From the NCBI GenBank assembly GCA_903813345.2, contig CAIIXF020000004.1, positions 21,858,477 to 21,922,476 of the forward strand: 64,000 bases of DNA, read 5' to 3'. The notes beneath the pieces were generated by a model, which was not told where the DNA came from, searched no databases, and saw only the letters and a list, made by a program, of their open reading frames with translations. This document shows, piece by piece, positions 1 through 28,459 of the stretch. Position numbers and translations under genes: made by a program. How positions within the stretch are numbered: the stretch's first letter is position 1; every line of letters begins with the position of its first letter. Origin of the DNA: Owenia fusiformis (Eukaryota; Annelida; Polychaeta; Sabellida; Oweniidae).

Positions 1-343
1 TTAAATTTTCTGAATACTTTTTGTGAAATCAACCAAAATTTCCTTTGTATATCTAGAATATTGAAAGGTCTAAGAAAATGTTGAATATGCCAATTTGTTT
101 GAACAAGGTTTGGAAAGACGTTTTATTTCATTCTGAAGAATTGGTAGAAAGGAACAAAAAACAAAACAAAAAAAAAAATGTAACAAAAACAGTTATATAA
201 AATATAAATAAATAATTTTCGCATTAAATTGTTGTCATTCAGTCAACATTACATAAAGGACCATGTTTTTTACAAAATGTTTTCAATAATTGGTTTAAGA
301 GAAAAACATTGTTGAATTCAGTTCACCATATCAATACCCATCC
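1..343. mobile_element. Foldback element M1, right part (cut by window edge)
   Basis: This is the right-hand part of a non-autonomous inverted-repeat element. It matches the right side of the complete copy at 8914-9613 almost base for base, and it matches the inverted copy at 45442-46009 on the other strand. The right terminus reads as the reverse complement of GGATGGGTATTGATATGGTG. No coding sequence is seen. Its left end lies outside the window. Confidence 0.75.
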
Positions 344-464
344 ATTGTAGTTTTTCACCATTCTGTACATTTTTCAAGTTATTTTGGCCGAAATTTGAAC
401 TGTGAACCCCGTAGTATTTTTAGGAAAGTGAACTCTCCCTGTCAAAAGCTGGCTACGGGCCTGC
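344..464. mobile_element. Foldback element with CTGGCTACGGGCCTGC terminus, right half
   Basis: This is the right half of a short foldback family whose ends are variants of GCAGGCCCGTAGCCAGG and its complement. In the second copy of the mucin unit the same element is split by element M1 (8887-9734). In the third copy it is uninterrupted (21160-21321). Here the left half would lie before the window start. Confidence 0.65.
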
Positions 465-948
465 ACTCTCTCCTTGTGATATTATAGAATACTGCATCTG
501 TGTTTGGATATGGAGAAGATTTTATCCAGAGCTGGAAAAAATACATTAAATCTTTCACATTGACAAATTTGCTATGTCTTTCATGTGTGCGTGTGTCAAG
601 TTGTTGCACATGCAATCATGTTTGTTATAATTTTTTATCTGAAATCTACTCAATGGTTGCTCGTTATTTTTACATCCATACCAGCGAAGTTTCCAATGCA
701 ATAAATCAGTACAATTCAAAACTTTTGTTGGTTCATATTTGATGTCCATTGTGATATTTCTAATTGAGATCATTTCAATCTAAGTAGAATGGTAAATATT
801 TTGATGCTCTTTGATGCTACCAATCAAATGATTGGTAGTTAAAAGGTGAAGGTAGATACACCAAATTCATAAAAATGTTGATTTGAAAAAGATTCCATGC
901 ATGTACTTAACACAAATTTTGAAAATGTCAATGTATTGAAATTTCCAT

Positions 949-3900
949 CTATTCATCAAGAGTCAGGTCCTTTATGCGCTGTTTCCTCTCCCTTTGTTCC
1001 TTTTTCACTGCCAATTCATTAATATATGGCAATCGTCTTGTCTTCTTTATGATTTTTACCAAACTCTCTTCAAAAACACATAATTTGACAGTCTTTGATG
1101 GGACTTTTGGACAGAGTTCATCACACGAGCTTTCATCACTATCTGCTCTTTTCTCTACAAGAACTTCAATGCCCTTTTTGTTCAAGCGTTTGTCAACTAC
1201 ATCTCGTATTAAGGGATCTCGTTTTAGACGGTTTGTAACTTGCAGAAAGGATTTTTTGAAGATATGAAGCTGTAGTGCCAAATTCACGATTTTGGAGCAC
1301 CAGCGTCGACAGTCTCGTTCTCCATCCACTTCATCATTTAGACTGTTTGGATGATGGGTGACATGTTCAATATAGCCTTCTGGATCACTAGTTTTCTGTC
1401 CATCACCTACTTTGGTGAGATCAGGTGTATCTAAAGAGCTCTCTTTTGTGTCAATAGATCTTTCATTAAGGTCACTTGATTTCTCAACAATATCATTTGA
1501 TTCTGTATCAATGTCAATAAATTTTTCCTCAACGTCAATAGATCTTTTTTCCTCACCTTCTTCAAGTTTCTTATTGACCAAACCAAGTTTTTCAAGTTTA
1601 TTAAGTCTTTTATTGACAACCCTATCAATGTATGGGACTTTCATTAGGGATCTATCCAAGACAACCACTTCATTACTGAACTCACAGAATTTGACAGCGA
1701 CACCTGGAGCTTTATTGCATAAATCCAAACAATTCTGTTCTCTGTCTGTAGGTGCCCTTTTTTGGAGTTCAAGTTCTCGTTTTACAGAATGCATTACATC
1801 TAAATCTATGTTGAACTGAAAACTAGGATGACTCAAGATGGTTCGTTTTCTTTTCTCCTCTGGGTTTGCAAGTCTTGCTTTGTAACGTGCCAGTTTTTTC
1901 TGAACGATTGTGCTAATCTCCGGTTCACTTTTGAATTTGGTAAGTTGGTTACCAAATGTGGTGTTGAAGTCAATCATTCTTTTGTAAACTTTGAATATTT
2001 TTTTGCAAGTTTTTTTACACTGATCAATTCTTGGATCTCTGGTTGAAGGCAGCACTGTTGTTGTTGTTGGTACTGTTGTGCTAGTAATTGTAGAAGTAGG
2101 TACTGTTGTACTAGGTTTAGGTATAGAAGGCACTATGGTACTTGGCTCAGGCGTTGAAGGCACAATGGTACTTGGTGCAAGTGTTGAAGGTACTTTTGTG
2201 CTAGGTTCAGATGTTTGAGGCACTATTGTACTAGGTTCAGGTGTTGAAGGCACCATTGTACTTGGCTCAGATGTTGAAAGCACTATTGTACTTGGCACAG
2301 GTGTTGAAGGTACTATTGTACTTGATTGAGGTGATGTTGAAAGCACTATTGTGCTGGGTGCAGGTGTTGAAGGCACTATGGTACTTGGTTGAGGGGGAGT
2401 TGTAGGCACTATTGAACTTGGTTGAAGGGGAGTTGAAGGCACTTTGGTACTTGGTTGATGGGAAGTTGAAGGCAATATCGTACTTGGTTGTGGAGGAGTT
2501 GAAGGCACTTTTGTACTTGGTTGAGGGGGAGTTGAAGGCAATATTGTACTTGGTTGAGGGGGAGTTGAAGGCACTATTGTACTTGGTTGAGGGGGAGTTG
2601 AAGGCACTATTGTACTTGCTTGAGGGGGAGTTGAAGGCACTTTGGTACTTGGTTGAGGGGGAGTTGTAGGCACTATTGTACTTGGTTGAGGGGGAGTTGA
2701 AGGCACTATTGTACTTGGATGAGAGGGAGTTGAAGGCACTATTGTACTTGGTTGAGGGGGAGTTGAAGGCACTATTGTACTTGGTTGAGGGGGAGTTGAA
2801 GGCACTTTGGTACTTGGTTGAGGGGGAGTTGTAGGCACTATTGTACTTGGTTGAGGATGAGTTGAAGGCACTTTGGTACTTGGTTGAGGGGGAGTTGAAG
2901 GCAATATTGTACTTGGTTGAGGGGGAGTTGAAGGAACTATTGAACTTGGTTGAGGGGAAGTTGAAGGCACTATTGTACTTGGTTGAGGGGGAGTTGAAGG
3001 CATTTTGGTACTTGGTTGAGGGGGAGTTGTAGGTACTTTTGTACTTGCTTGAAGGGGAGTTGAAGGCACTATTGTACTTGGTTGAGGGGGAGTTGAAGGC
3101 ACTTTGGTACTTGGTTGAGGGGGAGTTGAAGGCACTATTGTACTTGGTTGAGGGGGAGTTGAAGGAACATTGGTAGTTGGTTGAGGGGGAGTTGTAGGCA
3201 CTATTGTACTTGGTTGAGGGGGAGTTGAAGGCACTTTGGTGCTTGGTTGAGGGGGAGTTGTAGGCACTATTGTACTTGGTTGAGGGGGAGTTGAAGGCAC
3301 TTTGGTACTTGGTTGAGGGGGAGTTGTAGGCACTATTGTACTTGGTTGAGGCGGAGTTGAAGGCACTTTGGTGCTTGGTTGAGGGGGAGGTGAAGGCACT
3401 TTGGTACTTGGTTGAGGGGGAGTTGGAGGCAATATTGTACTTGGTTTAGGTGGAGTTGAAGGCACTTTGGTACTTGGTTGAGGGGGAGTTGAAGGCACTA
3501 TTGTACTTGGTTGAGGGGGAGTTGAAGGCACTTTGGTACTTGGTTGAGGGGGAGTTGTAGGCACTATTGTACTTGGTTGAGGGGGAGTTGAAGGCACTTC
3601 GGTGCTTGGTTGAGGGGGAGTTGTAGGCACTATTGTACTTGGTTGAGGGGAAGTTGAAGGCACTTTGGTACTTGGTTGAGGGGGAGTTGTAGGCACTTTT
3701 GTACTTGGTTGAGGGGGAGTTGAAGGAACTTTGGTGCTTGGCTGAGGGGGAGTTGTAGGCACTGTTGTACTTGGTTGAGGGGGAGTTGAAGGCACTTTGG
3801 TACTTGGTTGAGGGGGAGTTGAAGGCAATATTGTACTTGGTTGAGGGGGAATTGAAGGCAATATCGTACTTGGTTGAAGGGGAGTTGACGGCACTATTGT

Positions 3901-5487
3901 ACTTGGTAAAGGGGGAGTTGAAGGCACTTTGGTACTTGGTTGAGGGGGAGTTGAAGGCACTATTGTACTTGGTTGAGGGGGACTTGAAGGCTGAATTGTA
4001 CTTGGTTCATTTGTTAAAGGAACTATTGTACTTGTTGCAGGTGTTGTAGGAACAAAAGTACTTGGTGCAGGTGTTGAACGCACTATTGTACTTGGTGCAG
4101 GTGTTGAAGGCACTATTGTACTGGGCTCAGATGTTGAAGGAACTATTGTACTTGGTGCAGGTGTTGAAGGCCCTATTGTACTGGGCCAAGGGGGTGTTAA
4201 AGGAACTGTTGTACTTGGCTCAGATGAAGTTGAGGATGTCTTTAAGGTTTGTTGACCTGGTGTTGTTTTTTCATAAACAGAAGTGGCATCTGTGTCAAAA
4301 TTAGGTTGTCCACTGACTGGTGTTGTGAAACCTTCTCTTATTAGTGTGGCGAATGAGCTTGCCTGACTTGCTCTTGTAGGGACCACTGTACTAGGTTGTC
4401 CACTGACTGGTGTTGTGAAACCTTCTCTTATTATTGTGGCGAATGAGCTTGCCTGACTTGCTCTTGTAGGGACCACTGTACTAGGTTGTCCATTGACTGG
4501 TGTTGTGAAACCTTCTCTTTTTATTGTGGCGAATGAGCTTGCCTGACTTGCTCTTGTAGGGACCACTGTACTAGGTTGTCCACTGACTGGTGTTGTGAAA
4601 CCATCTCTTATTATTGTGGCGAATGAGCTTGCCTGACTTGCTCTTGTAGGGACCACTGTACTAGGTTGTCCATTGACTGGTGTTGTGAAACCTTCTCTTT
4701 TTATTGTGGCGAATGAGCTTGCTGTTGAAGGTACCATTGTACTAGGTGGTATTATTGTAGGTACTTTTGTACTAGGTGGACCTTTTTCATATGTTGTTGA
4801 AAGATATTTTGTTGAGGAAACCATTGTACTAGACACAATTTCATCACCCTTTTTCCTAATTGGTGCTCTTGTAATATGCTTACCATCTGTACTGGTCTGA
4901 ACTATTGTTGGAGGCTTGACAGAGCTGGGCAATCCTGGTGTTGGAGGTACTTTTGTATTAGCTTGTGTTGTCCATGGTATCCAAGTAGTTTCTTTCTGAT
5001 TTTTACCTGCTATTGAAGTCTTGGCTGTACTGGATAATCCTGGTGTTGAAGGTGCTTTTGTACTAACTTGTGTTGTCCATGGCATCCAAGTAGTTTCTTT
5101 CTGATTTTTACCTGCTATTGAAGTCTTGGCTGTACTGGATAATCCTGGTGTTGAAGGTGCTTTTGTACTAACTTGTGTTGTCCATGGTACCCAAGTAGTT
5201 TCTTTCTGATTTTTACCTGCTATTGAAGTCTTGGCAGTGCTGGATAATCCTGGTGTCGAAGGTCCTTTTGTATTAGCTTGTGTTGTCCATGGTATCAAAG
5301 TAGTTTCTTTCTGATTTTTATTATCTGCTATTGAAGTCTTGGCTGTACTGGGTAATCCTGGTGTTGATGGTGCTAGTGTAGTAAAGGAGAAAGGTGTTGT
5401 CCATGGTACCCAAGTAGTTTTTGTCTGACTTGTAATGGGTCCAATACAGAGGATCAAGATTAGCACACTAGAACTGACACGTTTCAT
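949..5487 (-). CDS. Secreted mucin-like protein with four-module Cys-x3-Cys C-terminus, copy 1
   Basis: A 1512-residue product, probably an extracellular mucus or matrix component; family not recognised. Residues 1-21 are a signal peptide ending ...CIGPITSQ. Next come about four 35-residue units with TTWxPWTTQ, five 30-residue units containing FATIxREGFTTPVxGQPS, then a long 11-residue array of the PSTIVPSTPPQ type (33 bp in DNA, about 2330-4005). This gives a dense potential O-glycosylation domain. The last 363 residues (952-2040) are not mucin-like. They hold four 45-residue modules, each with Cys-x3-Cys, a fixed Phe at module position 20 and a P-x-I...K-[KR] tail, with acidic linkers and Lys-Arg sites between them. 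The ATG follows a TTTCATTTCAG acceptor, so a 5' untranslated exon (see 5701-5768) is likely. It is the first of three tandem paralogues. Long antisense frames in the arrays are repeat artefacts. Confidence 0.85.
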   Translation of the reverse strand: MKRVSSSVLILILCIGPITSQTKTTWVPWTTPFSFTTLAPSTPGLPSTAKTSIADNKNQKETTLIPWTTQANTKGPSTPGLSSTAKTSIAGKNQKETTWVPWTTQVSTKAPSTPGLSSTAKTSIAGKNQKETTWMPWTTQVSTKAPSTPGLSSTAKTSIAGKNQKETTWIPWTTQANTKVPPTPGLPSSVKPPTIVQTSTDGKHITRAPIRKKGDEIVSSTMVSSTKYLSTTYEKGPPSTKVPTIIPPSTMVPSTASSFATIKREGFTTPVNGQPSTVVPTRASQASSFATIIRDGFTTPVSGQPSTVVPTRASQASSFATIKREGFTTPVNGQPSTVVPTRASQASSFATIIREGFTTPVSGQPSTVVPTRASQASSFATLIREGFTTPVSGQPNFDTDATSVYEKTTPGQQTLKTSSTSSEPSTTVPLTPPWPSTIGPSTPAPSTIVPSTSEPSTIVPSTPAPSTIVRSTPAPSTFVPTTPATSTIVPLTNEPSTIQPSSPPQPSTIVPSTPPQPSTKVPSTPPLPSTIVPSTPLQPSTILPSIPPQPSTILPSTPPQPSTKVPSTPPQPSTTVPTTPPQPSTKVPSTPPQPSTKVPTTPPQPSTKVPSTSPQPSTIVPTTPPQPSTEVPSTPPQPSTIVPTTPPQPSTKVPSTPPQPSTIVPSTPPQPSTKVPSTPPKPSTILPPTPPQPSTKVPSPPPQPSTKVPSTPPQPSTIVPTTPPQPSTKVPSTPPQPSTIVPTTPPQPSTKVPSTPPQPSTIVPTTPPQPTTNVPSTPPQPSTIVPSTPPQPSTKVPSTPPQPSTIVPSTPLQASTKVPTTPPQPSTKMPSTPPQPSTIVPSTSPQPSSIVPSTPPQPSTILPSTPPQPSTKVPSTHPQPSTIVPTTPPQPSTKVPSTPPQPSTIVPSTPPQPSTIVPSTPSHPSTIVPSTPPQPSTIVPTTPPQPSTKVPSTPPQASTIVPSTPPQPSTIVPSTPPQPSTILPSTPPQPSTKVPSTPPQPSTILPSTSHQPSTKVPSTPLQPSSIVPTTPPQPSTIVPSTPAPSTIVLSTSPQSSTIVPSTPVPSTIVLSTSEPSTMVPSTPEPSTIVPQTSEPSTKVPSTLAPSTIVPSTPEPSTIVPSIPKPSTTVPTSTITSTTVPTTTTVLPSTRDPRIDQCKKTCKKIFKVYKRMIDFNTTFGNQLTKFKSEPEISTIVQKKLARYKARLANPEEKRKRTILSHPSFQFNIDLDVMHSVKRELELQKRAPTDREQNCLDLCNKAPGVAVKFCEFSNEVVVLDRSLMKVPYIDRVVNKRLNKLEKLGLVNKKLEEGEEKRSIDVEEKFIDIDTESNDIVEKSSDLNERSIDTKESSLDTPDLTKVGDGQKTSDPEGYIEHVTHHPNSLNDEVDGERDCRRWCSKIVNLALQLHIFKKSFLQVTNRLKRDPLIRDVVDKRLNKKGIEVLVEKRADSDESSCDELCPKVPSKTVKLCVFEESLVKIIKKTRRLPYINELAVKKEQRERKQRIKDLTLDE
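952..2040 (-). other. Four-module C-terminal region of mucin copy 1
   Basis: Modules begin at residues 6, 102, 242 and 304 of this 363-residue region and align without gaps over 45 positions. Invariant positions are Cys3, Cys7, Lys9, Phe20, Pro35, Ile37 and Lys43, with Lys/Arg at 44. Modules 2 and 4 carry an extra Cys18 and are each preceded by Lys-Arg-Ala (LQKRAPT, VEKRADS). Modules 1 and 3 lack both. The same region is at 10212-11300 in copy 2 and about 21794-22860 in copy 3. Copy 3 has eight residues fewer in the linker after module 2. I do not recognise a described domain. Confidence 0.8.
2041..4230 (-). repeat. Coding minisatellite, mostly 33-bp units (PST-rich mucin domain)
   Basis: Units encode variants of PSTIVPSTPPQ. 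The edges change to 30-bp units (PSTIVPSTPAP type). Most variation is at the codon for Ile/Lys before Val and at Pro/Ser before the next Thr. All units keep the reading frame. Confidence 0.9.
4296..5400 (-). repeat. 90-bp and 105-bp coding tandem repeats
   Basis: Five 90-bp units lie at about 4296-4715; each carries REGFTTPVSGQPSTVVPT followed by RASQASSFAT. About four 105-bp units at 4940-5400 encode KNQKETTWxPWTTQ plus an APSTPGLSSTAKTSIAG segment. Both arrays differ in copy number between the gene copies (copy 2 has more of each). Confidence 0.85.
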
Positions 5488-8400
5488 CTGAAATGAAAAA
5501 TGTGTAATTTAAAAAAATCGAAATTTATACTCAAGCTTAAAATTGAATGTGGATGACTTGAAAAAATTGATATGTTTGGTTTGTCTCAAAAATTCTTTCC
5601 TAGTAAGAGTAAAATAAAATTTTATAATATAAATGAAGTACATTTATTTGGTATCATGCCTATTTTCGGAAAAGACCATGCAGTTGTGAAAATTACAAAC
5701 CTTTTATCTGTCTTTATCATACTCTGAGAATGCTCTGGAAACTGCATCAGTGTCTCCCAAACCTGCATCTGGTCTCTGAGTACTAGATTCTTTGAAGTGT
5801 TTTAATTTTTTGACAATGCTAAATGGCTGTTTACTTCACAAGACCTCATTTGAATATGTAGATTTTAAAATTTGACAATATAGTTGATGTTTCTATTGTT
5901 TCTTAATGTTCATTAATTTATCAGTATGTTATGTAAATCATTAAACTGGAATTGAAAGATTGTAATTAATATAAACATCAATAAGCAGAAATCTTATTGA
6001 TGATCGAGAGTTCACATTGATTTTTTAAAATTATCACTATTGAAATACAGTAAAGCTTTTGTAATTGAAACATCTTTGGTGACTTTAAAAAGTCTTAAAA
6101 CTTAAACTTACTTACAACCTACATACAGAGGTTCATTTAACATTAAGTAATTTGGTCATGGGACTTTGAAAAGTGTTCCAATTTTGGAGGTTTTCTACTT
6201 ATACAGATTTGTTCCACTTAACATGTTTAACTGTACTTATTTGTCTTTTCCATTGTGTAAATCATATAAAGTTTTAAGTTTGATATAACTCCTTTACAAT
6301 ACTTTTCCACAATAGAAGTTAATGATGTTGCCCTTTGTGCAGTTATAATATAGAATGTAACCCATTTTCTCTTTGATTGCAGTGTTGAACGTCTATGTAC
6401 ACACACCCCTATTTTCTATGTAGAACTAGTACAAATTTTTGTTTTGCAAAATTTGCCTAGTAGACTATAGGCCCATATTTGCAAAACCTTGAACTTGCGA
6501 CAATTTTTTCAGAACATGCTCTCAGTGCTTCTACTTTAAGGCTCTGTCATTAAAAATAACTATAAACCACATTTGAAATGCATACTAGTTAACTTTATTC
6601 ATACAAACTTCTCAAGTTTGTACACGTCATCATATAACATATTTAAAATAACATACATGTATAAATATTATCTCTGTAAAATGCATGAATGGATCTTGTA
6701 TAACCTATATTTTGCACATGCAGTTTAAAAATCTACATCCCACCTCCAACAAAATTCTGTGCATTATCATGGAGTGTCATTACATGTTGATTATGGTGGT
6801 ATGTTAAGTATTTCAGTACATTATTGAATTTTGAAAAATTTGTCGAAAATTGTGAGTATTAAATGAGGATGCACAATTTTTTGTAATCATAATAAAAAAC
6901 ATCAACTGTTTTATTGTTTTTGCTATCACTCTCTATCTTGTATAAAGCAAAAATGATTTTAAATCTGAATGAATATACCTTAGACAATCAAATGATTTGT
7001 ACAAAAGCTTTATATTCTGAAAATGTCGAAGCTTTTCAAAATAATGATTTTAACATGAAAATGGTTGTAAAATTCCTCAAATGGAAATTGCACATTGGAG
7101 ATCCCCATGCCCCCCATTAGATGGCTTCAATGTAGGGCTTCAATTTGTAGGCCTTTTGAGCATTAATTGGCCTTTTGGGCCTTATTTTTAATTTGGGCTC
7201 AACTTGTTTTTCTGAATTGAAATGTACATCTGCCAGTGTTGCTGCCTGCTATGATTTGAAACCCATGTGAGCTAAAGTTGTAAATAAATACAGTCATGTA
7301 GTACATCTACAAAGACCATACAACTTGGAATCTACATTGTACATTCATCAATGTGGTGATCTCCCATAGGTCTTTTTCGACAGGGTGCTATGTCCTGAAT
7401 TCAGCAGTTTTGGTCAAATTACCTCAAGACAGTAAAACCTGTGTTAGTAGAAACCTTTAGAGGTCTCTTTGTGCTCTCAAAAAGTGTTAAAAACAGGCAA
7501 AATTAATGGAAATTATGAATTTAACATAAAAGTTGAAAAATCCCTGAAAACAACAGGCGATTTTGTGAAAACAACCAGTGAAAATCACCTGTTGCCTGGT
7601 GCTAATGAAACCCCTGAATTATAAAGTGGGCCATGGGACTCTGGACAGTGTAACACTTATGAAAGTGCTTCATTTACAGAAATATTTGGCTTGACAATTT
7701 CAACTGACATGATGCTAATAGATTTTCAACATGTTAGCCTATAGTTTTCAACTTTTCAATATGAGCAGCACTTGGTTGCTCTTATACCAGGGAGATCACT
7801 GCTATGATTAAAATAAATAGAATATAACATGAGATATTTCACCCAGAATGTCTTCTGATATTTAGACCTGTATAAAGGACAAGAAGGGGACTCAGGATGG
7901 AATAAAATGACCAGGTGGCTCAAGACTTTTTCAGGGGCAAAATAAGGATAGATAGGAGAGATTCACCATGGGGAGCCCCCTCAAGGTTTTTGAGGTTTGA
8001 GTTCAGACCTGCTGGATTTATACACCCAGATCTCCAAAACAAGGCAGCCCTCTGTGTGGCACCCATCAGCAGTATTACATTTACTAAAAGCAATAATACA
8101 TTTACTTAAAGGCAGAATCATAGATATAGGGTTTGCAAAATTCCAAGGATGTACATGTACAGTTGACCTAGTTGTCCAGCTGTAATACATTTACTTAAAG
8201 GCAGCATCAGAGTTATATATAGCGGTTATAAAATTGCATATAACAAGTGCAGTAAACTAATTACCAATGAATTCTTTAACATCTGAAGTACATTGTCTCC
8301 CAAAAGATCTGTTGGCGCATAATAGATAAATAATGGATCAACTGTGGAATACAAGTGACATTGAATCCAAATGGACTTCTTGATACAAATGAAAGTAACT

Positions 8401-9734: not shown

Positions 9735-11589
9735 ACCATCTCCTTATGATATAATAGAATACTGCATCTGTGTTTGGATATGGAGAAGATTTTATCCAGA
9801 CCTGGAAAAAATACATTAGATCTTTCACATTGACAAATTTGCTATGTCGTTCATGTGTGCCTGTCTTAAATATTTCAAGTAGTTGCATTACACAATCATG
9901 TATGTTATAATTTTTGTCTGAAATCTACTCAATGGTTGCTTGTTATTTTTACATCCATACCAGCGAAGTTTCCAATGCAATAAATCAGTACAATTCAAAA
10001 CATTGTTGGTTCATATTTGATGTCCATTGTGATATTTCTAATTGAGATCATTTCAATCAAAGTAGAATGGTAAATATTTTGATGCTCTTTGAGCAAGAGG
10101 GAAATGATTGGCAGTTAAAAGGTGAAATTCATAAAAATACTGGTTTAAAAGATTCCATGCATGTACTTAACACAAATTTTGAAAATGTCCACGTATTGAG
10201 ATTTCCATCTATTCATCAAGAGTCAGGTCCTTTATGCGCTGTTTCCTCTCCCTTTGTTCCTTTTTCACTGCCAATTCATTAATATATGGCAATCGTCTTG
10301 TCTTCTTTATGATTTTTACCAAACTCTCTTCAAAAACACATAATTTGACAGTCTTTGATTGGACTTTTGGACAGAGTTCATCACACGAGCTTTCATCACT
10401 ATCTGCTCTTTTCTCTACGAGAACTTCAATGCCCTTTTTGTTCAAGCGTTTGTCAACTACATCTCGTATTAAGGGATCTCGTTTTAGACGGTTTGTAGCT
10501 TGCAAGAAGGATTTTTTGAAGATATGAAGCTGTAGTGCCAAATTCACGATTTTGGAGCACCAGCGTCGACAGTCTCGTTCTCCATCCACTTCATCATTTA
10601 GACTGTTTGGATGATGGGTGACATGTTCAATATAGCCTTCTGGATCACTAGATTTCTGTCCATCACCTACTTTGGTGAGATCAGGTGTATCTAAAGAGCT
10701 CTCTTTTGTGTCAATAGATCTTTCATTAAGGTCACTTGATTTCTCAACAATATCATTTGATTCTGTATCAATGTCAATAAATTTTTCCTCAACGTCAATA
10801 GATCTTTTTTCCTCACCTTCTTCAAGTTTCTTATTGACCAAACCAAGTTTTTCAAGTTTATTAATTCTTTTATTGACAACCCTATCAATGTATGGGACTC
10901 TCATTAGGGATCTATCTAAGACAACCACTTCATTACTGAACTCACAGAATTTGACAGCAACACCTGGAGCTTTATTGCATAAATCCAAACAATTCTGTTC
11001 TCTATCTGTTGGTGCCCTTTTTTGGAGTTCAAGTTCTCTTTTTACAGAATGCATTACATTTAAATCCATGTTGAACCGAAAACTAGGATGACTCAAGATG
11101 GCTCGTTTTCTTTTCTCTTCTGGGCTTGCAAGTCTTGCTTTGTAACGTGCCAGTTTTTTCTGAACGATTGTGCTAATCTCTGGTTCACTTTTGAATTTAG
11201 TAAGTTGGTTACCAAATGTGGTGTTGAATTCAATCATCTTTTTGTAGACACTGTACATTTTACTACAGGTCCTTTTACACTGATCAATTCTTGGATCTCT
11301 GGTTGAAGGCAGCACTGTTGTTGTTGTTGGTACTGTTGTGCTGGTAATTGTAGAAGTAGGTACTGTTGTGCTAGTAATTGTAGTAGTAGGTACTGTTGTA
11401 CTAGGTTTAGGTGTTGAAGGCACTATGGTACTTGGCTCAGGCGTTGAAGGCACTATGGTACTTGGTGCAAGTGTTGAAAGTACTTTTGTACTAGATTCAG
11501 GTGTTGGAGGCACTATTGTACTAGGTTCAGGTGTTGAAGGCACTATTGTACTTGGCACAGGTGTTGAAGGTACTATTGTACTTGGTTGA

Positions 11590-13260
11590 GGTGGTGTTGA
11601 AAGCACTATTGTGCTGGGTGCAGATGTTGAAGGCACTATGGTACTTGGTTGAGGGGGAGTTGTAGGCACTATTGTACTTGGTTGAGGGGGAGTTGAAGGC
11701 ACTTCGGTACTTGGTTGATGGGAAGTTGAACGCAATATCGTACTTGGTTGTGGAGGAGTTGAAGGCACTATTGTACTTGGTTGAGGGGGAGTTGAAGGCA
11801 CTATTGTACTTGGTTGAGGGGGAGTTGAAGGCACTTTGGTACTTGGTTGAGGGGGAGTTGTAGGCACTATTGTACTTGGTTGAGGGGGAGTTGAAGGCAC
11901 TATTGTACTTGGTTGAGGGGGAGTTGAAGGCACTTTGGTACTTGGTTGAGGGGGAGTTGAAGGCACTATTGTACTTGGTTGAGGGGGAGTTGAAGGCACC
12001 TTGGTACTTGGTTGAGGGGGAGTTGTAGGCACTATTGTACTTGGTTGAGGAGGAGTTGAAGGCACTTTGGTACTTGGTTGAGGGGGAGTTGAAGGCAATA
12101 TTGAACTTGGTTGAGGGGGAGTTGAAGGAACTATTGAACTTGGTTGAGGGGAAGTCGGAGGCACTATTGTACTTGGTTGAGGGGTAGTTGAAGGCATTTT
12201 GGTACTTGGTTGAGGGGGAGTTGTAGGCACTTTTGTACTTGGTTGAGGGGGAGTTGAAGGTACTATTGTACTTGGTTGAGGGGGAGTTGAAGGCACTATG
12301 GTACTTGGTTGAGGGGGAGTTGAAGGCACTTTTGTACTTGGTTGAGGGGGTGTTGAAAGCACTTTGGAACTTGGTTGAGGGGGAGTTGTAGGCACTATTG
12401 TACTTGGTTGAGGGGGAGTTGAAGGCACTTTGGTGCTTCGTTGAGGGGGAGTTGTAGGCACTATTGTACTTGGTTGAGGGGGAGTTGAAGGCACTTTGGT
12501 ACTTGGTTGAGGGGGAGTTGTAGGTACTATTGTACTTGGTTGAGGGGGAGTTGAAGGCACTTTGGTGCTTGGTTGAGGGGGAGTTGAAGGCATTTTGGTA
12601 CTTGGTTGAGGGGGAGTTGAAGGCAATATCGTACTTGGTTGAGGAGGAGTTGAAGGCACTATTGTACTTGGTAAAGGGGGAGTTGAAGGCATCATTGTAC
12701 TTGGTTTAGGTGGAGTTAAAGGCACTTTGGTACTTGGTTGAGGGGGAGTTGAAGGCACTATTGTACTTGGTTGAGGGGGAGTTGAAGGCACTTTGGTACT
12801 TGGTTGAGGGGGAGTTGTAGGCACTTTTGTACTTAGTTGAGGGGGAGCTGAAGGCACTTTGGTGCTTGGTTGAGGGGGAGTTGTAGGCACTATTGTACTT
12901 GGTTGAGGGGGAGTTGAAGGCACTTTGGTACTTGGTTGAGGGGGAGTTGTAGGCACTATTGTACTTGGTTGAGGGGGAGTTGAAGGTACTTTGGTGCTTG
13001 GTTGAGGGAGAGTTGTAGGCACTATTGTACTTGGTTGAGGGGGAGTTGAAGGACCTTTGGTACTTGGTTGAGGGGGAGTTGAAGGCAATATCGTACTTGG
13101 TTGAGGGGGAGTTGAAGGCAATATTGAACTTGGTTGAGGGGGAGTTGAAGGCACTATTGTACTTGGTAAAGGGGGACTTGAAGGCACTATTGTACTTGGT
13201 TGAGGGGGAGTTGAAGGCACTATTGTACTTGGTTGAGGGGGACTTGAAGGCTGAATTGTA
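11590..13260 (-). repeat. 33-bp coding minisatellite of mucin copy 2
   Basis: Units encode PSTIVPSTPPQ and PSTKVPSTPPQ variants, as in copy 1. Order and number of variants differ from copy 1, which shows unit turnover since duplication. Confidence 0.9.
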
Positions 13261-13514
13261 CTTGGTTCATTTGTTGAAGGAACTATTGTACTTGTTGCAG
13301 GTGTTGAAGGAACAAAAGTACTTGGTGCAGGTGTTGAAGGCACTATTGTACTGGGCTCAGATGTTGAAGAAACTATTGTACTTGGTGCAGGTGTTGAAGG
13401 CCCTATTGTACTGGGCCAAGGGGGTGTTAAAGGAACTGTTGTACTTGGCTCAGATGAAGTTAAGGTTTGTTGACCTGGTGTTGTTTTTTCATAAACAGAA
13501 GTGGCATCTGTGTC

Positions 13515-15080
13515 AAAATTAGGTTGTCCACTGACTGGTGTTGTGAAACCTTCTCTTATTATTGTGGCGAATGAGCTTGCCTGACTTGCTCTTGTAGGGA
13601 CCACTGTACTAGGTTGTCCACTGACTGGTGTCGTGAAACCTTCTCTTTTTATTGTGGTGAATGAGCTTGCCTGACTTGCTCTTGTAGGGACCACTGTACT
13701 AGGTTGTCCACTTACTGGTGTTGTGAAACCTTCTCTTATTATTGTGGCGAATGAGCTTGCCTGACTTGCTCTTGTAGGGACCACTGTACTAGGTTGTCCA
13801 CTGACTGGTGTCGTGAAACCTTCTCTTTTTATTGTGGCGAATGAGCTTGCCTGACTTGCTCTTGTAGGGACCACTGTACTAGGTTGTCCACTGACTGGTG
13901 TTGTGAAACCTTCTCTTTTTATTGTGGCGAATGAGCTTGCCTGACTTGCTCATGTAGGGACCACTGTACTAGGTTGTCCACTGACTGGTGTTGTGAAACC
14001 TTCTCTTATTATTGTGGCAAATGAGCTTGCCTGACTTGCTCTTGTAGGGACCACTGTACTAGGTTGTCCACTGACTGGTGTTGTGAAACCTTCTCTTATT
14101 ATTGTGGCGAATGAGCTTGATTGACTTGCTCTTGTAGGGACCACTGTACTAGATTGTCCATTGACTGGTGTTGTGAAACCTTCTCTTATTATTGTGGTGA
14201 ATGAGCTTTCAGTTGAAGGTACCATTGTACTAGGTGGTATTATTGTAGGTACTTTTGTACTAGGTGGACCTTTTTCATATGTTGTTGAAAGATATTTTGT
14301 TGAGGAAACCATTGTACTAGACACAATTTCATCACCCTTTTTCCTAATTGGTGCTCTTGTAATATGCTTACCATCTGTACTGGTCTGAACTATTGTTGGA
14401 GGCTTGACAGAGCTGGGCAATCCTGGTGTTGGAGGTACTTTTGTATTAGCTTGTGTTGTCCATGGCATCCAAGTAGTTTCTTTCTGATTTTTACCTGCTA
14501 TTGAAGTCTTGGCTGTACTGGATAATCCTGGTGTTGAAGGTGCTTTTGTACTAACTTGTGTTGTCCATGGTATCAAAGTAGTTTCTTTCTGATTTTTACC
14601 TGCTATTGAAGTCTTGGCTGTACTGGATAATCCTGGTGTTGAAGGTGCTTTTGTACTAACTTGTGTTGTCCATGGTATCAAAGTAGTTTCTTTCTGATTT
14701 TTATCTGCTATTGAAGTCTTGGCTGTACTGGATAATCCTGGTGTTGAAGGTACTTTTGTACTAGCTTGTGTTGTCCATGGCATCCAAGTAGTTTCTTTCT
14801 GATTTTTATCTGCTATTGAAGTCTTGGCTGTACTGGATAATCCTGGTGTCGAAGGTGCTTTTGTACTAGCTTGTGTTGTCCATGGCATCCAAGTAGTTTC
14901 TTTCTGATTTTTACCTGCTATTGACGTCTTGGCTGTGCTGGATACTCCTGGTGTCGAAGGTGCTTTTGTATTAGCTTGTGTTGTCCATGGTATCAAAGTA
15001 GTTTCTTTCTGATTTTTATCTACTATTGAAGTCATGGTTGTACTGGGTAATCCTGGTGTTGATGGTGCTAGTGTAGTCAA
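13515..15080 (-). repeat. 90-bp and 105-bp coding tandem repeats of mucin copy 2
   Basis: The 90-bp units (FTTPVSGQPSTVVPTRASQ) occupy about 13515-14215 and include the unit with the stop codon. The 105-bp units (KNQKETTWMPWTTQ) occupy about 14430-15080. Both arrays are longer than in copy 1. Confidence 0.85.
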
Positions 15081-15396
15081 GGAGAAAGGTGTTGTCCATG
15101 GTAACCAAGTAGTTTTTGTTTGACATGTGATGGGTCCAATACAGAGGACCAAGATTAACACACTAGAACTGACACGTTTCATCTGAAATGAAAAATGTGT
15201 AATTTAAAAAAAATCAAAATTTATACTCAAGCTTAAAATTGAATGTGGATGACTTGAAAAAATTGATATGTTTGGTTTGTCTCAAAAATTCTTTCCTAGT
15301 AAGAGTAAAATAAAATTTTATAATATAAATTATGTACATGTATTTGGTATTGTGCCTATTTTCTGATAAGACCATGCAGTTGTGAAAATTACAAAC

Positions 15397-21790: not shown

Positions 21791-24700
21791 CTATTCATCA
21801 AGAGTCAGGTCCTTAATGCGCTGTTTTCTTTCCCTTTGTTCCTTTTTCACTGCCAAATCATTAATATATGGCAATCGTCTTGTCTTCTTTATGATTTTTA
21901 CCAAACTCTCTTCAAAAACACATAATTTGACAGTCTTTGATGGGACTTTTGGACAGAGTTCATCACACGAGCTTTCATCACTATCTGCTCTTTTCTCTAC
22001 AAGAACTTCAATGCCCTTTTTGTTCAAGCGTTTATCAACTACATCTCGTATTAAGGGATCTCGTTTTAGACGGTTTGTAACTTGCAGAAAGGATTTTTTG
22101 AAGATATGAAGCTGTAGTGCCAAATTCACGATTTTGGAGCACCAGCGTCGACAGTCTCGTTCTCCATCCACTTCATCATTTAGACTGTTTGGATTATGGG
22201 TGACATGTTCAATATAAGCTTCAGGATCACTAGGTTTCTGTTCATCACCTACTTTGGTGAGATCAGGTGTATCTAAAGAACTCTCTTTTGTGTCAATAGA
22301 TCTTTCATTAAGGTCACTTGATTTCTCAATAATATCATTTGATTCTGTATCAATGTCAATAGATCTTTTTTCCTCACCTTCTTCAAGTTTCTTATTGACC
22401 AAACCAAGTTTTTCAAGTTTTTTAAGTCTTTTATTGACAACCCTATCAATGTATGGGACTCTCATTAGGGATCTATCTAAGACAACCACTTCATTACTGA
22501 ACTCGCAGAATTTGACCGCGACACCTGGAGCTTTATTGCATAAATCCAAACAATTCTGTTCTCTATCTGTTGGTGCCCTTTTTTGGAGTTCAAGTTCTCG
22601 TTTGACAGAATGCATTACATCTAAATCTATGTTGAACTGAAAACTAGGATGACTCAAGATGGCTCGTTTTCTTTTCTCTTCTGGGCTTGCAAGTCTTGCT
22701 TTGTAACGTGCCAGTTTTTTCTGAACGATTGTGCTAATCTCTGGTTCACTTTTGAATTTGGTAAGTTGGTTACCAAATGTGGTGTTGAATTCAATCATCT
22801 TTTTGTAGACACTGTACATTTTACTACAGGTCCTTTTACACTGATCAATTCTTGGATCTCTGGTTGAAGGCAGCACTGTTGTTGTTGTTGGTACTGTTGT
22901 GCTAGTAATTGTAGAAGTAGGTACTTTTGTACTAGGTTCAGGTGTTGAAGGCACTATGGTACTTGGCTCAGGCGTTGAAGGCACTATTGTACTTGGTTCA
23001 GGTGTTGAAGGCACTATTGTACTTGGCTCAGGTGATGAAGGAACAATTGTACTTGGTTCAGGTGTTGAAGGAACTATTGTACTTGGTGCAGGTGTTGAAG
23101 GCACTATTGTACTAGGTGCAGGTGTTGAAGGAACAATTGTACTAGGTTCAGGTGTTGAGGGAACTATTGTACTAGGTGCAGGTGTTGAAGGAACAATTGT
23201 ACTAGGTCCAGGTGTTGATGGAACTATTGTACTTTGTGCAGGTGTTGAAGGCACTATTGTACTGGGCTCAGGTGTTGAAGGAACAAGTGTACTTGGTTCT
23301 TTTGTTGATGGAACTATTGTACTTGGTGCATGTGTTGAAGGAACAATTGTACTAGGTTCAGGTGTTGAAGGAACAATTGTACTTGGTGCAGGTGTTGAAG
23401 GAACTAATGTACTCGGTACAGGTGTTGAAGGCACTAGTGTACTAGGTTCAGGTGTTGAGGGAACTATTGTACTTGGTGCAGGTGTTGAAGGCACTAATGT
23501 ACTCGGTACAGGTGTTGAAGGCACTAGTGTACTAGGTTCAGGTGTTGAAGGAACTATTGTACTAGGTTCAGGTGTTGAAGGAATAGGTGTACTTGGTTCT
23601 TTTGTTGATGGAACAATTGTACTTGGTGCATGTGTTGAAGGAACAATTGTACTAGGTTCAGGTGTTGAAGGAACAATTGTACTTGGTGCAGGTGTTGAAG
23701 GAACTAATGTACTTGGTACAGGTGTTGAAGGCACTATTGTACTAGGTTCAGGTGTTGAGGGAACTATTGTACTTGGTTCACGTGTTGAAGGAACTATCGT
23801 ACTTTGTTCAGGTGTTGAAGGAACTATTGTACTAGGTTTAGCTGTTGATGGAACAATTGTACTTGGTTGGGGTGGTGTTGAAGGAACAATTGTACTAGGT
23901 TCAGGTGTTGAAGGAACTATTGTACTTGGTGCAGGTGTTGAAGGCACAATTGTACTTGGTGCAGGTGTAGAAGGAACAATTGTACTTGGTTCTTTTGTTG
24001 ATGGAACTATTGTACTTGGTGCAGGTGTTGAAGGTACTATTGTACTTGGTGCAGGTGTTGAAGGCACAATTGTACTTGGTGCAGGTGTAGAAGGAACAAT
24101 TGTACTTGGTTCTTTTGTTGATGGAACTATTGTACTTGGTACAGGTGTTGAAGGCACTATTGTACTTGGTTCAGGTGTTGAAGGAACAATTGTACTTGGT
24201 TGAGGTGGTGTTGAAGGAACAATTGTACTAGGTTCAAGTGTTGAAGGCACTATTGTGCTTGCTGCAGGTGTTGAAGGCACTATTGTACTAGGTTCAGGTG
24301 TTGATGGCACTATTGTACTTGGTACAGGTGTTGGAGGAAGAATTGTACTAGGTTCAGGTGTTGATGGAACTATTGTACTTTGTGCAGGAGTTGAGGGCAC
24401 TATTGTACTAGGTCCAGGTGTTGAAGGAATAATTGTACTAGGTTCAGGGGTTGAAGGAACTATTGTACTTGGTGCAGGTGTTGAAGGAACTATTGTACTT
24501 GGTGCAGGTGTTGAAGGAACAATTGTACTTGGAGCAAGTGTTGAAGGAACAATTGTACTAGGTTCTTGGGTTGAAGGAACTATTGTACTTGGTGCTGGTG
24601 TTGAAGGCACTATTGTACTAGGTTTAGGTGTTGATGGCACTATTGAACTTGGTGTAGGTGTTGAAGGAACAATTGTACTTGGTGCAGGTGTTGAAGGCAC

Positions 24701-27700
24701 TATAGTACTTGGTGCAGGTGTTGAAGGAACTATTGTACTTGGTGCAGGTGTTGAAGGAACAATTGAACTTGGTGCAGGTGTTGAAGGAACAATTGTACTT
24801 GGGGCAGGTGTTGAAGGAACAATTGTACTAGATTCTGGGGTTGAAGGAACTATTGTACTTGGTGCAGGTGTTGAAGGCACTATTGTACTAGGTTTAGGTG
24901 TTGATGGCACTATTGTACTTGGTGCAGGTGTTGAAGGCACTATTGTACTTGGTGCAGGTGTTGAAGGCACTATTGTACTTGGTGCAAGTGTTGAAGGAAC
25001 TAATGTACTAGGTTCAGGTGTTGATGGCACTATTGTACTTGGTACAGGTGTTGAAGGAACAATTGTACTTGGTTCAGGTGTTGATGGAACTATTGTACTT
25101 TGTGCAGGAGTTGAGGGCACTATTGTACTGGGCTCAGGTGTTGAAGGAATAATTGTACTAGGTTCAGGGGTTGAAGGAACTATTGTACTTGGTGCAGGTG
25201 TTGAAGGAACAATTGTACTTGGTGAAGGTGTTGAAGGAACAATCGTACTTGGTGCAGGTGTTGAAGGAACAATTGTACTAGGTTTTGGGGTTGAAGGAAC
25301 TATTGTACTTGGTGCAGGTGTTGAAGGCACTATTGTACTTGGTACAGGTGTTGATGGCACTATTGTACTTGGTGTAGGTGTTGAAGGAACAATTGTACTT
25401 GGTGCAGGTGTTGAAGGCACTATTGTACTTGGTGCATGTGTTGAAGGCACTATTGTACTTGGTGCAAGTGTTGAAGGAACAATTGTACTTGGTGCAGGTG
25501 TTGAAGGAACAATTGTACTTGGTGCAGGTGTTGAAGGAACAATTGTACTTGGTGCAGGTGTTGAAGGAATAATTGTACTCGGTGCAGGTGTTGATGGAAC
25601 AATTGTACTAGGTTCAGGGGTTGAAGGAACTATTGTGCTTGCTGCAAGTGTTGAAGGCACTATTGTACTTGGTACAAGTGTTGAAGGAACAATTGTACTA
25701 GGTTCAGGTGTTGAAGGAACAATTGTACTTGGTGCAGGTGTTGAAGGAACAATTGTACTTGGTGCAAGTGTTGAAGGAACAATTGTACTTGGTACAGGTG
25801 TCGAAGGAACTATTGTACTTGGTGCAAGTGTTGAAGGAACAATTGTACTTGGTTGAGGTGGTGTTGAAGGAACAATTGTACTTGGTGCAGGTGTTGAAGG
25901 AACAATTGTACTAGATTCAGCTGTTGATGGAACAATTGTACTTGGTGCATGTGTTGAAGGAACAATTGTACTAGGTTCAGCTGTTGAAGGAACTATTGTA
26001 CTTGGGGCAAGTGTTGAGGGAACAATTGTACTTGGTGCAAGTGTTGAAGGAACAATTGTACTGGGTTCAGCTGTTGAAGGAACTATTGTACTTGGTGCAA
26101 GTGTTGAAGGAACAATTGTACTTGGTTCAGGTGTTGAAGGAACAATTGTACTAGGTTCAGCTGTTGAAGGAACTATTGTACTTGGTGCAGGTGTCGAAGG
26201 CACTATTGTACTTGGTGCAGGTGTTGATGGAACTATTGTACTAGGTTCAGGGGTTGAAGGAACTACTGTACTTGGTTCAGGGGTGGAAGGAACTATTGTA
26301 CTTGGTGCAGGTGTTGAAGGGACAATTGTACTTGGTGCAGGAGTTGATGGAACAATTGAACTTGGTGCAGGTGTAGAAGGAACAATTGTACTTGGTTCTT
26401 TTGTTGATGGAACTATTGTACTTGGTGCAGGTGTTGAAGGTACTATTGTACTTGGTGCAGGTGTTGAAGGCACAATTGTACTTGGTGCAGGTGTAGAAGG
26501 AACAATTGTACTTGGTTCTTTTGTTGATGGAACTATTGTACTTGGTACAGGTGTTGAAGGCACTATTGTACTTGGTTCAGGTGTTGAAGGAACAATTGTA
26601 CTTGGTTGAGGTGGTGTTGAAGGAACAATTGTACTAGGTACAAGTGTTGAAGGCACTATTGTGCTTGCTGCAGGTGTTGAAGGCACTATTGTACTAGGTT
26701 CAGGTGTTGATGGCACTATTGTACTTGGTACAGGTGTTGGAGGAAGAATTGTACTAGGTTCAGGTGTTGATGGAACTATTGTACTTTGTGCAGGAGTTGA
26801 GGGCACTATTGTACTAGGTCCAGGTGTTGAAGGAATAATTGTACTAGGTTCAGGGGTTGAAGGAACTATTGTACTTGGTGCAGGTGTTGAAGGAACTATT
26901 GTACTTGGTGCAGGTGTTGAAGGAACAATTGTACTTGGTACAGGAGTTGAAGGAACAATTGTACTTGGTTCAGGGGTTGAAGGAACTATTGTACTTGGTA
27001 CTGGTGTTGAAGGCACTATTGTACTTGGTCCAGGTGTTGAAGGAACTATTGTACTTGGTGCAAGTGTTGAAGGAACAATTGTACTTGGTACTGGTGTTGA
27101 AGGAACTATTGTACTTGGTGCTGGTGTTGAAGGAACTATTGTACTTGGTGCTGGTGTTGAAGGAACTATTGTACTTGGTACAGGTGTTGAAGGCACTATT
27201 GTACTTGGTTCAGGTGTTGAAGGAACTATTGTACTTGGTACAAGTGTTGAAGGGACTATTGTTGATCCTGGTCCAGGTGTTGAAGGAACTATTGTACTTG
27301 GTGCTGGTGTTGAAGGCACTATTGTACTTGGTGCTGGTCTTGAAGGCACTATTGTACTTGGTGCTGGTGTTGAAGGAACTATTGTTGTACCTGGTCCAGG
27401 TTTTGAAGGAACTATTGTACTTGGGGCAGGTGTTGAAGGAACAATTGTACTAGATTCTGGGGTTGAAGGAACTATTGTACTTGGTGCAGGTGTTGAAGGC
27501 ACTATTGTACTTGGTGCTGGTGTTGAAGGCACTATTGTACTTGGTGCTGGTCTTGATGACAATTGTGTGCTGGGCTGAGGTGACTTTGATTGGACCTTTG
27601 TACTAGGATTACCTGGAGTTGATGATGTCTTTGAGGTTTGTTGACCTGGTGTTGTTTTTTCATAAACAGAAGTGGCATCTGTGTCAAAATTAGGTTGTCC

Positions 27701-28345
27701 ACTGACTGGTGTTGTGAAACCTTCTCTTTTTATTGTGGCGAATGAGCTTCCCCGACTTGCTCTTGTAGGGACCACTGTACTAGGTTGTCCATTGACTGGT
27801 GTTGTGAAACCTTCTCTTATTATTGTGGCGAATGAGCTTCCCTGACTTGCTCTTGTATTGACCACTGTAATAGGTGGTATTATTGTGGCTACTTTTGTAC
27901 TAGGTGTACCTTTTTCATATGTTGTCGAAGGATAATTTGTTGAGGGTTCCATTGTACTAGACACAATTTCATCACCTCGAATTGTTGAAGGTACCATTGT
28001 ACTAGACACAATTTCTTCACCTCTAATTGTTGAGGGTACCATTGTACTAGACACAATTTCATCACCTGTTGTTATGGGTTCCTTTGTTGTAGGCTGACCA
28101 TTCGTACTTGTTTGAACTGCTGTGGAAGGCTTGATTGAGCTTGGCCATCCTGGTGTTGTAGGTGGTTTGGCACTAGTTTGACTTGCTGTTGAAGGATTGG
28201 CAGAGCTGGGCCATCCTGGTGTTGATGGTGCTAGTGTAGTAAAGGAGAACGGTGTTGTCCATGGTACCCAAGTTGTTTTTGTCTGACTTGTGATGGGTCC
28301 AATACAGAGGACCAAGATTAACACACTAGAACTGACACATTTCAT
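21791..28345 (-). CDS. Secreted mucin-like protein, copy 3 (long 30-bp array)
   Basis: A product of 2184 residues starting MKCVSSSVLILVLC. An in-frame ATG 48 bases upstream lies in the intron-like sequence before the TTCATCTCATTTCAG-type acceptor, so I chose the start homologous to the other copies. The N-terminus lacks most 35-residue WxPW units and instead has three GDEIVSSTMVPSTIR repeats. Only two 30-residue FATIxREGF units remain (27705-27880). The PST domain is almost wholly a 10-residue array, PSTIVPSTPA/E/V (about 22920-27560), roughly twice the length of the others. The C-terminal four-module region is conserved, with a shorter linker after module 2. Like its siblings it is probably exported and heavily O-glycosylated; its function is not known. 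The frame is intact over 6.5 kb. Confidence 0.85.
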   Translation of the reverse strand: MKCVSSSVLILVLCIGPITSQTKTTWVPWTTPFSFTTLAPSTPGWPSSANPSTASQTSAKPPTTPGWPSSIKPSTAVQTSTNGQPTTKEPITTGDEIVSSTMVPSTIRGEEIVSSTMVPSTIRGDEIVSSTMEPSTNYPSTTYEKGTPSTKVATIIPPITVVNTRASQGSSFATIIREGFTTPVNGQPSTVVPTRASRGSSFATIKREGFTTPVSGQPNFDTDATSVYEKTTPGQQTSKTSSTPGNPSTKVQSKSPQPSTQLSSRPAPSTIVPSTPAPSTIVPSTPAPSTIVPSTPESSTIVPSTPAPSTIVPSKPGPGTTIVPSTPAPSTIVPSRPAPSTIVPSTPAPSTIVPSTPGPGSTIVPSTLVPSTIVPSTPEPSTIVPSTPVPSTIVPSTPAPSTIVPSTPAPSTIVPSTPVPSTIVPSTLAPSTIVPSTPGPSTIVPSTPVPSTIVPSTPEPSTIVPSTPVPSTIVPSTPAPSTIVPSTPAPSTIVPSTPEPSTIIPSTPGPSTIVPSTPAQSTIVPSTPEPSTILPPTPVPSTIVPSTPEPSTIVPSTPAASTIVPSTLVPSTIVPSTPPQPSTIVPSTPEPSTIVPSTPVPSTIVPSTKEPSTIVPSTPAPSTIVPSTPAPSTIVPSTPAPSTIVPSTKEPSTIVPSTPAPSSIVPSTPAPSTIVPSTPAPSTIVPSTPEPSTVVPSTPEPSTIVPSTPAPSTIVPSTPAPSTIVPSTAEPSTIVPSTPEPSTIVPSTLAPSTIVPSTAEPSTIVPSTLAPSTIVPSTLAPSTIVPSTAEPSTIVPSTHAPSTIVPSTAESSTIVPSTPAPSTIVPSTPPQPSTIVPSTLAPSTIVPSTPVPSTIVPSTLAPSTIVPSTPAPSTIVPSTPEPSTIVPSTLVPSTIVPSTLAASTIVPSTPEPSTIVPSTPAPSTIIPSTPAPSTIVPSTPAPSTIVPSTPAPSTIVPSTLAPSTIVPSTHAPSTIVPSTPAPSTIVPSTPTPSTIVPSTPVPSTIVPSTPAPSTIVPSTPKPSTIVPSTPAPSTIVPSTPSPSTIVPSTPAPSTIVPSTPEPSTIIPSTPEPSTIVPSTPAQSTIVPSTPEPSTIVPSTPVPSTIVPSTPEPSTLVPSTLAPSTIVPSTPAPSTIVPSTPAPSTIVPSTPKPSTIVPSTPAPSTIVPSTPESSTIVPSTPAPSTIVPSTPAPSSIVPSTPAPSTIVPSTPAPSTIVPSTPAPSTIVPSTPTPSSIVPSTPKPSTIVPSTPAPSTIVPSTQEPSTIVPSTLAPSTIVPSTPAPSTIVPSTPAPSTIVPSTPEPSTIIPSTPGPSTIVPSTPAQSTIVPSTPEPSTILPPTPVPSTIVPSTPEPSTIVPSTPAASTIVPSTLEPSTIVPSTPPQPSTIVPSTPEPSTIVPSTPVPSTIVPSTKEPSTIVPSTPAPSTIVPSTPAPSTIVPSTPAPSTIVPSTKEPSTIVPSTPAPSTIVPSTPAPSTIVPSTPEPSTIVPSTPPQPSTIVPSTAKPSTIVPSTPEQSTIVPSTREPSTIVPSTPEPSTIVPSTPVPSTLVPSTPAPSTIVPSTPEPSTIVPSTHAPSTIVPSTKEPSTPIPSTPEPSTIVPSTPEPSTLVPSTPVPSTLVPSTPAPSTIVPSTPEPSTLVPSTPVPSTLVPSTPAPSTIVPSTPEPSTIVPSTHAPSTIVPSTKEPSTLVPSTPEPSTIVPSTPAQSTIVPSTPGPSTIVPSTPAPSTIVPSTPEPSTIVPSTPAPSTIVPSTPAPSTIVPSTPEPSTIVPSSPEPSTIVPSTPEPSTIVPSTPEPSTIVPSTPEPSTKVPTSTITSTTVPTTTTVLPSTRDPRIDQCKRTCSKMYSVYKKMIEFNTTFGNQLTKFKSEPEISTIVQKKLARYKARLASPEEKRKRAILSHPSFQFNIDLDVMHSVKRELELQKRAPTDREQNCLDLCNKAPGVAVKFCEFSNEVVVLDRSLMRVPYIDRVVNKRLKKLEKLGLVNKKLEEGEEKRSIDIDTESNDIIEKSSDLNERSIDTKESSLDTPDLTKVGDEQKPSDPEAYIEHVTHNPNSLNDEVDGERDCRRWCSKIVNLALQLHIFKKSFLQVTNRLKRDPLIRDVVDKRLNKKGIEVLVEKRADSDESSCDELCPKVPSKTVKLCVFEESLVKIIKKTRRLPYINDLAVKKEQRERKQRIKDLTLDE
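22920..27560 (-). repeat. 30-bp coding minisatellite of mucin copy 3
   Basis: About 150 units encode PSTIVPSTPx. A few 33-bp units (PPQ or GPG insertions) interrupt it. Blocks of units are repeated within the array: 23965-24480 resembles 26371-26886 at a 2406-bp offset. Shorter blocks near 23280-23400 and 23580-23700 repeat at a 300-bp offset. The antisense strand is also open for long stretches because of unit composition. Confidence 0.9.
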
Positions 28346-28459
28346 CTGAAATGAGAAAAGTGTAATTAAAAAAAAATATAAATTCATCCTCAAGCCTTAT
28401 TGTAAATGAAATAAATTTTTCAGGTAATGATGCAATTCAAGTGTTTAATTTCATATATA

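Follow-up and report, generated by a model that had tools for sequence, protein, structure and literature searches.

Three tandem mucin-like genes of the annelid Owenia fusiformis end in a tail in which a Cys-bearing module of 45 residues is repeated four times, and this repetition is real and not due to chance. The genes lie in a window of 64,000 nucleotides, by which we mean the whole stretch of DNA that was analysed. Judged by its sequence, the tail has about an even chance of being the end that cross-links or condenses a secreted mucus or glue mucin, in which the mucin repeats would act as a hydrated spacer. The module is absent from the libraries searched (Pfam-A, NCBIfam and PDB) and is provisionally regarded as new.

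Layout of the three mucin-like genes

Genes A, B and C have a common layout, in which a hydrophobic start resembling a signal peptide (judged by eye in all three) is followed by a long Pro/Ser/Thr-rich repeat part and then by the tail, which has 367 residues in A, 367 in B and 360 in C.

949..5487, minus strand: mucin-like gene A, 1512 aa, stop codon at 949-951
10209..15182, minus strand: mucin-like gene B, laid out as gene A, 1657 residues counted across its stop
21791..28345, minus strand: mucin-like gene C, 2184 aa, with a 30-base repeat in about 154 copies

The mucin part takes up 1124 of 1512 residues in A, 1269 of 1657 in B (across the stop) and 1803 of 2184 in C, and Pro, Ser and Thr together make up 59-65% of it in the three genes. 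From residue 22 up to the tail none of the three proteins has a Cys; gene B has one at residue 20, near the possible signal-peptide cut point. Should the start prove to be a signal peptide, disulfides in the mature protein could therefore form in the tail alone. By the rule given in the available text of one study, a mucin has PTS repeats across a third or more of its length (PMC2515642), and the repeats of A, B and C each extend that far. By their sequences the three genes would thus encode secreted mucin-like proteins, a protein class that is already known.

An in-frame TGA (13950-13952, minus strand) inside a 90-base repeat array of gene B is either a genuine stop or an assembly error. An identical TTTCAG stands directly before the ATG of all three genes (5488-5517, 15183-15212 and 28346-28375, minus strand) and, because this site resembles a splice acceptor, the coding part is probably a single exon behind a 5' untranslated exon. 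Farther upstream of the ATG, gene C is only 41-58% alike to A and B in 300-base blocks. Long open frames of the GVEGTIVLG type run antisense to the mucin repeats of gene C (22845-27578, plus strand) and probably arise as a side effect of the 30-base repeat.

Four Cys modules in the C-terminal tail

The first-pass annotation had described in gene A four gap-free 45-residue segments that share C3, C7, K9, F20, P35, I37, K43 and K/R44, with C18 and a preceding KRA limited to modules 2 and 4 and absent from modules 1 and 3. Both observations hold, and module profiles find all four modules in each of genes A, B and C.

952..2052, minus strand: gene A C-terminal tail with four modules, 367 residues, 10 Cys
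1891..2025, minus strand: module 1 of gene A, 2 Cys
1603..1737, minus strand: module 2 of gene A, 3 Cys, KRA ahead
1333..1542, minus strand: acidic spacer from module 2 to module 3 of gene A, 70 residues with a net charge of -13 and no Cys
1183..1317, minus strand: module 3 of gene A, 2 Cys
997..1131, minus strand: module 4 of gene A, 3 Cys, KRA ahead
11151..11285, minus strand: module 1 of gene B, profile match
10863..10997, minus strand: module 2 of gene B, profile match
10443..10577, minus strand: module 3 of gene B, profile match
10257..10391, minus strand: module 4 of gene B, profile match
22712..22846, minus strand: module 1 of gene C, profile match
22424..22558, minus strand: module 2 of gene C, profile match
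22025..22159, minus strand: module 3 of gene C, profile match
21839..21973, minus strand: module 4 of gene C, profile match

Each tail has 10 Cys, every one of them within a module. The modules of gene A start at tail residues 10, 106, 246 and 308, at uneven start-to-start distances (96, 140 and 62 residues), and the acidic spacer of gene C is 7 residues shorter than that of gene A.

Aligned in register, the four modules of gene A reach a sum-of-pairs BLOSUM62 score of 305, while shuffled modules have a mean of -229 (sd 35; maximum -58, n=5000); without the Cys columns the modules score 199 and the shuffles -185 on average (sd 34; maximum -23, n=5000). The excess over the shuffles amounts to 15 sd and 11 sd, respectively. 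With the register left free, between 0 and 2 of 300 shuffles came up to the score for five of the six module pairs, and 6 of 300 for the weaker pair 1-2. Leave-one-out profiles of gene A (54-residue windows) ranked each omitted module first against 2000 of its own shuffles, with 16.1, 35.9, 33.4 and 28.9 bits for modules 1 to 4 and 14.6, 17.6, 14.8 and 9.1 bits for the respective best shuffle; because the first of these differences is so small, detection of module 1 by the profile of the other three is marginal. The internal repetition, which the annotation would have given up had it lacked statistical support, is thus borne out by the shuffles as well as by the leave-one-out profiles. The profile of all 12 modules that the annotation had called for recovers, by construction, four modules per gene when it is run on the six frames of the window, and finds no further module there below E 0.48.

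Pairwise identity among the modules of gene A is 9-14 of 45 residues (20-31%). Modules 2 and 4 are alike over 61 residues (tail 105-165 and 307-367, score 91; 52 or less in 200 shuffles of the tail) and are by sequence clearly partners. It had been proposed that an ancestral pair was duplicated as a pair to give an A-B-A-B order. The split of modules 1 and 3 from modules 2 and 4 does score best in all three genes, but its column-bootstrap support is moderate, 0.72-0.78 with and 0.60-0.68 without the Cys columns. Over 54 residues the pair 2-4 scores 78-85, 2-3 62-65, 3-4 52-60 and 1-3 43-49, the last ranking below 2-3 and 3-4; in the 45-residue comparison for gene A, 1-3 and 3-4 both score 57 and 2-3 scores 52. 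Duplication of an A-B pair appears to be the simplest history and is favoured, not established; other orders are possible.

Searches for relatives of the module

A significant match of single modules to a known family, which would have spoken against a new domain, did not appear: the best match in Pfam-A, DUF155, has an E value of only 0.064, is shared by 3 of the 12 modules and is taken as chance. None of the three tails reaches the Pfam cut-off, the matches below it (AGRB_N, MANEC, GidB, Pyr_redox and RECK CC4) having E values of 0.03-0.76, and a match of one of the three tails in NCBIfam, a prokaryote library (best E 0.071), is likewise attributed to chance. The gene A tail finds nothing up to E 10 among PDB sequences. 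The module profile has no significant match in PDB; a designed helical barrel (E 0.09, the best) and three constructs of Frizzled-6 (E 0.69-1.1) are again taken as chance. When prokaryote genome contigs and viral contigs were searched with the tail alignment, 162 and 69 pattern stretches were obtained, respectively, and tblastn confirmed none of them, an absence that is expected for an animal gene and says nothing on animals.

In the literature, three tail peptides and three repeat peptides were found in no paper, although such strings can be found only if they are printed in the text, and word searches returned titles and abstracts that do not name the module, which is weak evidence of absence. 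Related species may well hold the module, perhaps as a predicted protein without a name.

Predicted structure and charge

The annotation had predicted a compact helical fold with a Cys3-Cys7 pairing. AlphaFold2 models of modules 3-4 (6 alignment rows; pLDDT 53.8, pTM 0.33) and of the full tail (3 rows; pLDDT 35.0, pTM 0.26) are helical in large part, and at this low confidence the breaks in the pair model adjoin the conserved Pro in both modules; compactness finds no support at such pLDDT values. In the full-tail model modules 1 and 3 are helical and module 2 has two short strands (tail residues 103-155, about 1588-1746 in gene A). These modelled strands would speak against an all-helical module, with low confidence. 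The proposed Cys3-Cys7 pairing is doubted, because a disulfide between positions i and i+4 of one helix is under strain.

A helical-wheel projection puts Cys3 near the hydrophobic side, 9-48 degrees off it, and Cys7 and Cys18 at 49-88 and 94-108 degrees, respectively. Modules 1 and 3 have an amphipathic helix 1 (equalled by 2 and 33 of 2000 shuffles), while in modules 2 and 4 its amphipathy is not significant (199 and 305 of 2000); that of helix 2 is borderline at best in module 2 (83 of 2000), and modules 1, 3 and 4 show none (1242, 1934 and 896 of 2000). Net charge is +13 over tail residues 1-70 (module 1) and +7 over residues 241-302 (module 3), while the module 2 and module 4 segments reach only +2 each.

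Duplication of the genes and selection on the tail

A recent segmental duplication joins genes A and B, 1-4750 matching 9266-13977 at 93%, mucin part included, and 4908-6113 matching 14606-15810 at 95%; from the 3' flank into the mucin part, the A and B stretches match gene C at 82-83%. Seen over the window, the tandem duplication comprises 1-6113 with 9266-15810 and 7865-8909 with 20134-21182, at offsets of about 9.3 and 12.3 kb and 93-95% likeness. This weakens the claim that all three genes keep the modules although their mucin parts are changing: the duplicated stretches of A and B include the mucin part, and that of gene C is different.

With gaps ignored, tail coding DNA diverges by 3.2% (A-B), 3.6% (A-C) and 2.7% (B-C), and 500 non-coding bases of the 3' flank by 6.9%, 8.6% and 5.9%, respectively. 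Since the flanks are nearly as alike as the tails, the likeness among the genes is largely a matter of gene conversion or of descent from a recent common copy. The tail nevertheless still shows purifying selection: pN/pS is 0.31 (A-B), 0.25 (A-C) and 0.21 (B-C), with 19 of 875 nonsynonymous and 16 of 226 synonymous sites changed between A and B (one-sided Fisher p 0.0006; 1.5e-5 for A-C and 3.2e-5 for B-C). For A-B, dN/dS depends on the estimator, YN00 giving 0.45, a weaker constraint, and NG86 0.30.

Counted in 54-residue windows, the modules carry 11 (A-B), 10 (A-C) and 5 (B-C) residue changes in 216, and the linkers 6 in 151, 7 in 144 and 8 in 144; modules taken together and linkers change at a similar rate, with no clear difference. 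Module 1 alone accounts for 7 of the 11 changes in A-B and 7 of the 10 in A-C. Modules 2-4, with 4, 3 and 5 changes in 162 (A-B, A-C and B-C), may be somewhat more conserved than the linkers. The earlier description of the modules as the likely functional core is weakened by the likeness of the flanks and by modules that change like linkers. Better signs of constraint are the low pN/pS and, above all, the motif itself, kept between modules that have drifted to 20-31% identity.

Other features of the window

An open single-exon frame at 39614-41743 (minus strand) encodes an FMRFamide-gated/ASC-type sodium channel (Pfam ASC 3.7e-72). The closest entries in PDB to the channel gene (39614-41713) are the FMRFamide-gated sodium channels 7yvb (E 2.2e-40) and 8on7 (E 3.1e-33), which come from a sea slug and an annelid, a likeness that would fit a lophotrochozoan source. 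A second copy at 49497-52485 (minus strand), 83% alike over about 2 kb, is split over several reading frames, and a 111-base repeat (37 residues) occurs about nine times in its N-terminal part (51341-52356); this copy is possibly a pseudogene, a multi-exon copy or a product of assembly errors. A long tandem array at 53587-56298 repeats a unit of 72 bases, alongside variants of 59 bases and others.

Possible roles of the tail

We propose that each module would form two helices with a break between them at Pro35, the first helix bearing Cys3, Cys7 and, in modules 2 and 4, Cys18 as well, and that the Cys would form disulfides between modules or between chains, by which mucin chains would be joined. 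The repeats, if O-glycosylated, would provide the hydrated spacer, and the basic modules 1 and 3 together with the acidic spacer may aid charge-driven packing in secretory granules. Against a cross-linker stand the low confidence of the models, the lack of significant helix-1 amphipathy and the small net charge in modules 2 and 4, the weaker A-B constraint by YN00, and modules that are not clearly above the linkers in conservation. A processed precursor, moreover, would account for the KR pairs of the linkers equally well or better.

1843..1854, minus strand: KRKR within the module 1-2 linker, possible convertase site
1753..1761, minus strand: KRA ahead of module 2, possible convertase site
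1543..1548, minus strand: KR behind module 2 (EEGEEKR), possible convertase site
1144..1152, minus strand: KRA ahead of module 4, possible convertase site

Release of peptides as from a prohormone is the main rival to cross-linking: a convertase would cut at the KR of the linkers and set free Cys-bearing helical peptides from modules 2-4, module 1 staying on the mucin. The gene A tail has 10 KR pairs where 3.6 are expected (5 of 2000 shuffles reach 10), with no enrichment of RR, KK or RK; six of the ten lie in linkers, including KRKR-T, QKR-A, EKR-S and EKR-A, and KRA stands shortly ahead of modules 2 and 4. The remaining four, however, fall within modules, the conserved K43-K/R44 accounting for two of them, none of the ten is preceded by a Gly as amidation donor (there is no GKR), a single released module 2 or 4 would have a free thiol among its three Cys unless it dimerised, and a mucin of 1100-1800 residues is an odd peptide carrier. 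We consider such release unlikely, though to be reckoned with. Both readings could be true if the cut pieces stay disulfide-joined, and a broader version of this, to which we give little credence, has a new, lineage-restricted helical CX3C family with a duplicated A-B pair by which a mucin polymerises in the absence of VWD or cystine-knot domains, its KR linkers cut and its modules held together by disulfides.

A further reading is a lectin-like or mineral-binding domain that would anchor the mucin to a matrix such as shell, cuticle or microbes, and in which the Cys would only stabilise each module from within. It would suit the retention of the motif over an old divergence of the modules, the basic charge of modules 1 and 3 and the acidic character of the spacer. 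The strain of an i,i+4 helical disulfide within a module argues against it, as do the lack of a significant binding-domain match in Pfam and models that show no confident fold, and we hold it to be rather improbable. That the tail has no specific role and was carried along by recent gene duplication, its likeness being mere history, would agree with the recent duplicates and their alike flanks, with the in-frame stop in gene B and with modules that together change about as often as linkers. A pN/pS of 0.21-0.31 with p of 0.0006 or less in each of the three gene pairs, and a motif retained between modules of such low identity, stand against it; this last explanation, disfavoured by the selection test, appears very improbable.

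If the tail does cross-link, a small Cys module repeated at the end of a Cys-free mucin is a candidate for a compact cross-linker, of use for understanding mucus and for bioadhesives, and if the KR sites are used, the mucin would double as a peptide precursor. According to the available text of the source, some Drosophila mucins lack vertebrate mucin domains and gel-like matrices may be possible through other properties (PMC2515642). The question on which the tail bears is how such invertebrate mucins assemble without the gel-building domains of vertebrates. The finding is modest until relatives of the module appear in other animals.

Comparison with known systems

Alpha-hairpinins have two CX3C motifs per helical hairpin. 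The modules resemble such peptides in having CX3C on a predicted helix, and differ in having only one CX3C each. The best natural PDB match of the module profile is the cysteine-rich region of Frizzled-6, over 17 residues around CX3C-x-K at chance level (E 0.69), and in Frizzled-6 the next Cys has another spacing than in the modules.

Vertebrate gel-forming mucins combine a PTS domain with another type of domain, VWD or SEA being named in the available part of the source (PMC1552070). To this extent the present proteins are alike; VWD, however, is impossible in their Cys-free PTS parts, and the tails, which were the parts scanned, stay below the Pfam cut-off in all three genes. Closer in layout are the glue mucins of Drosophila. 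As far as the available text of two studies goes, Sgs1 and Sgs3 combine a signal peptide with PTS repeats that vary in number and with a C-terminus that is conserved, Sgs3 lies in a gene cluster (Sgs3/7/8), and the Cys of glue proteins have been proposed to cross-link (PMC6352337, PMC9409817). By the same texts, some Sgs repeats bear Cys, whereas those of genes A, B and C bear none, and the C-terminal segments of Sgs proteins have 50-135 aa, against 360-367 aa here with four modules and an acidic spacer. With Sgs1, Sgs3, Sgs4 and Eig71Ee, as these sources describe them, the three genes share PTS repeats, a conserved Cys-bearing C-terminus and clustering of the genes, a likeness of layout only.
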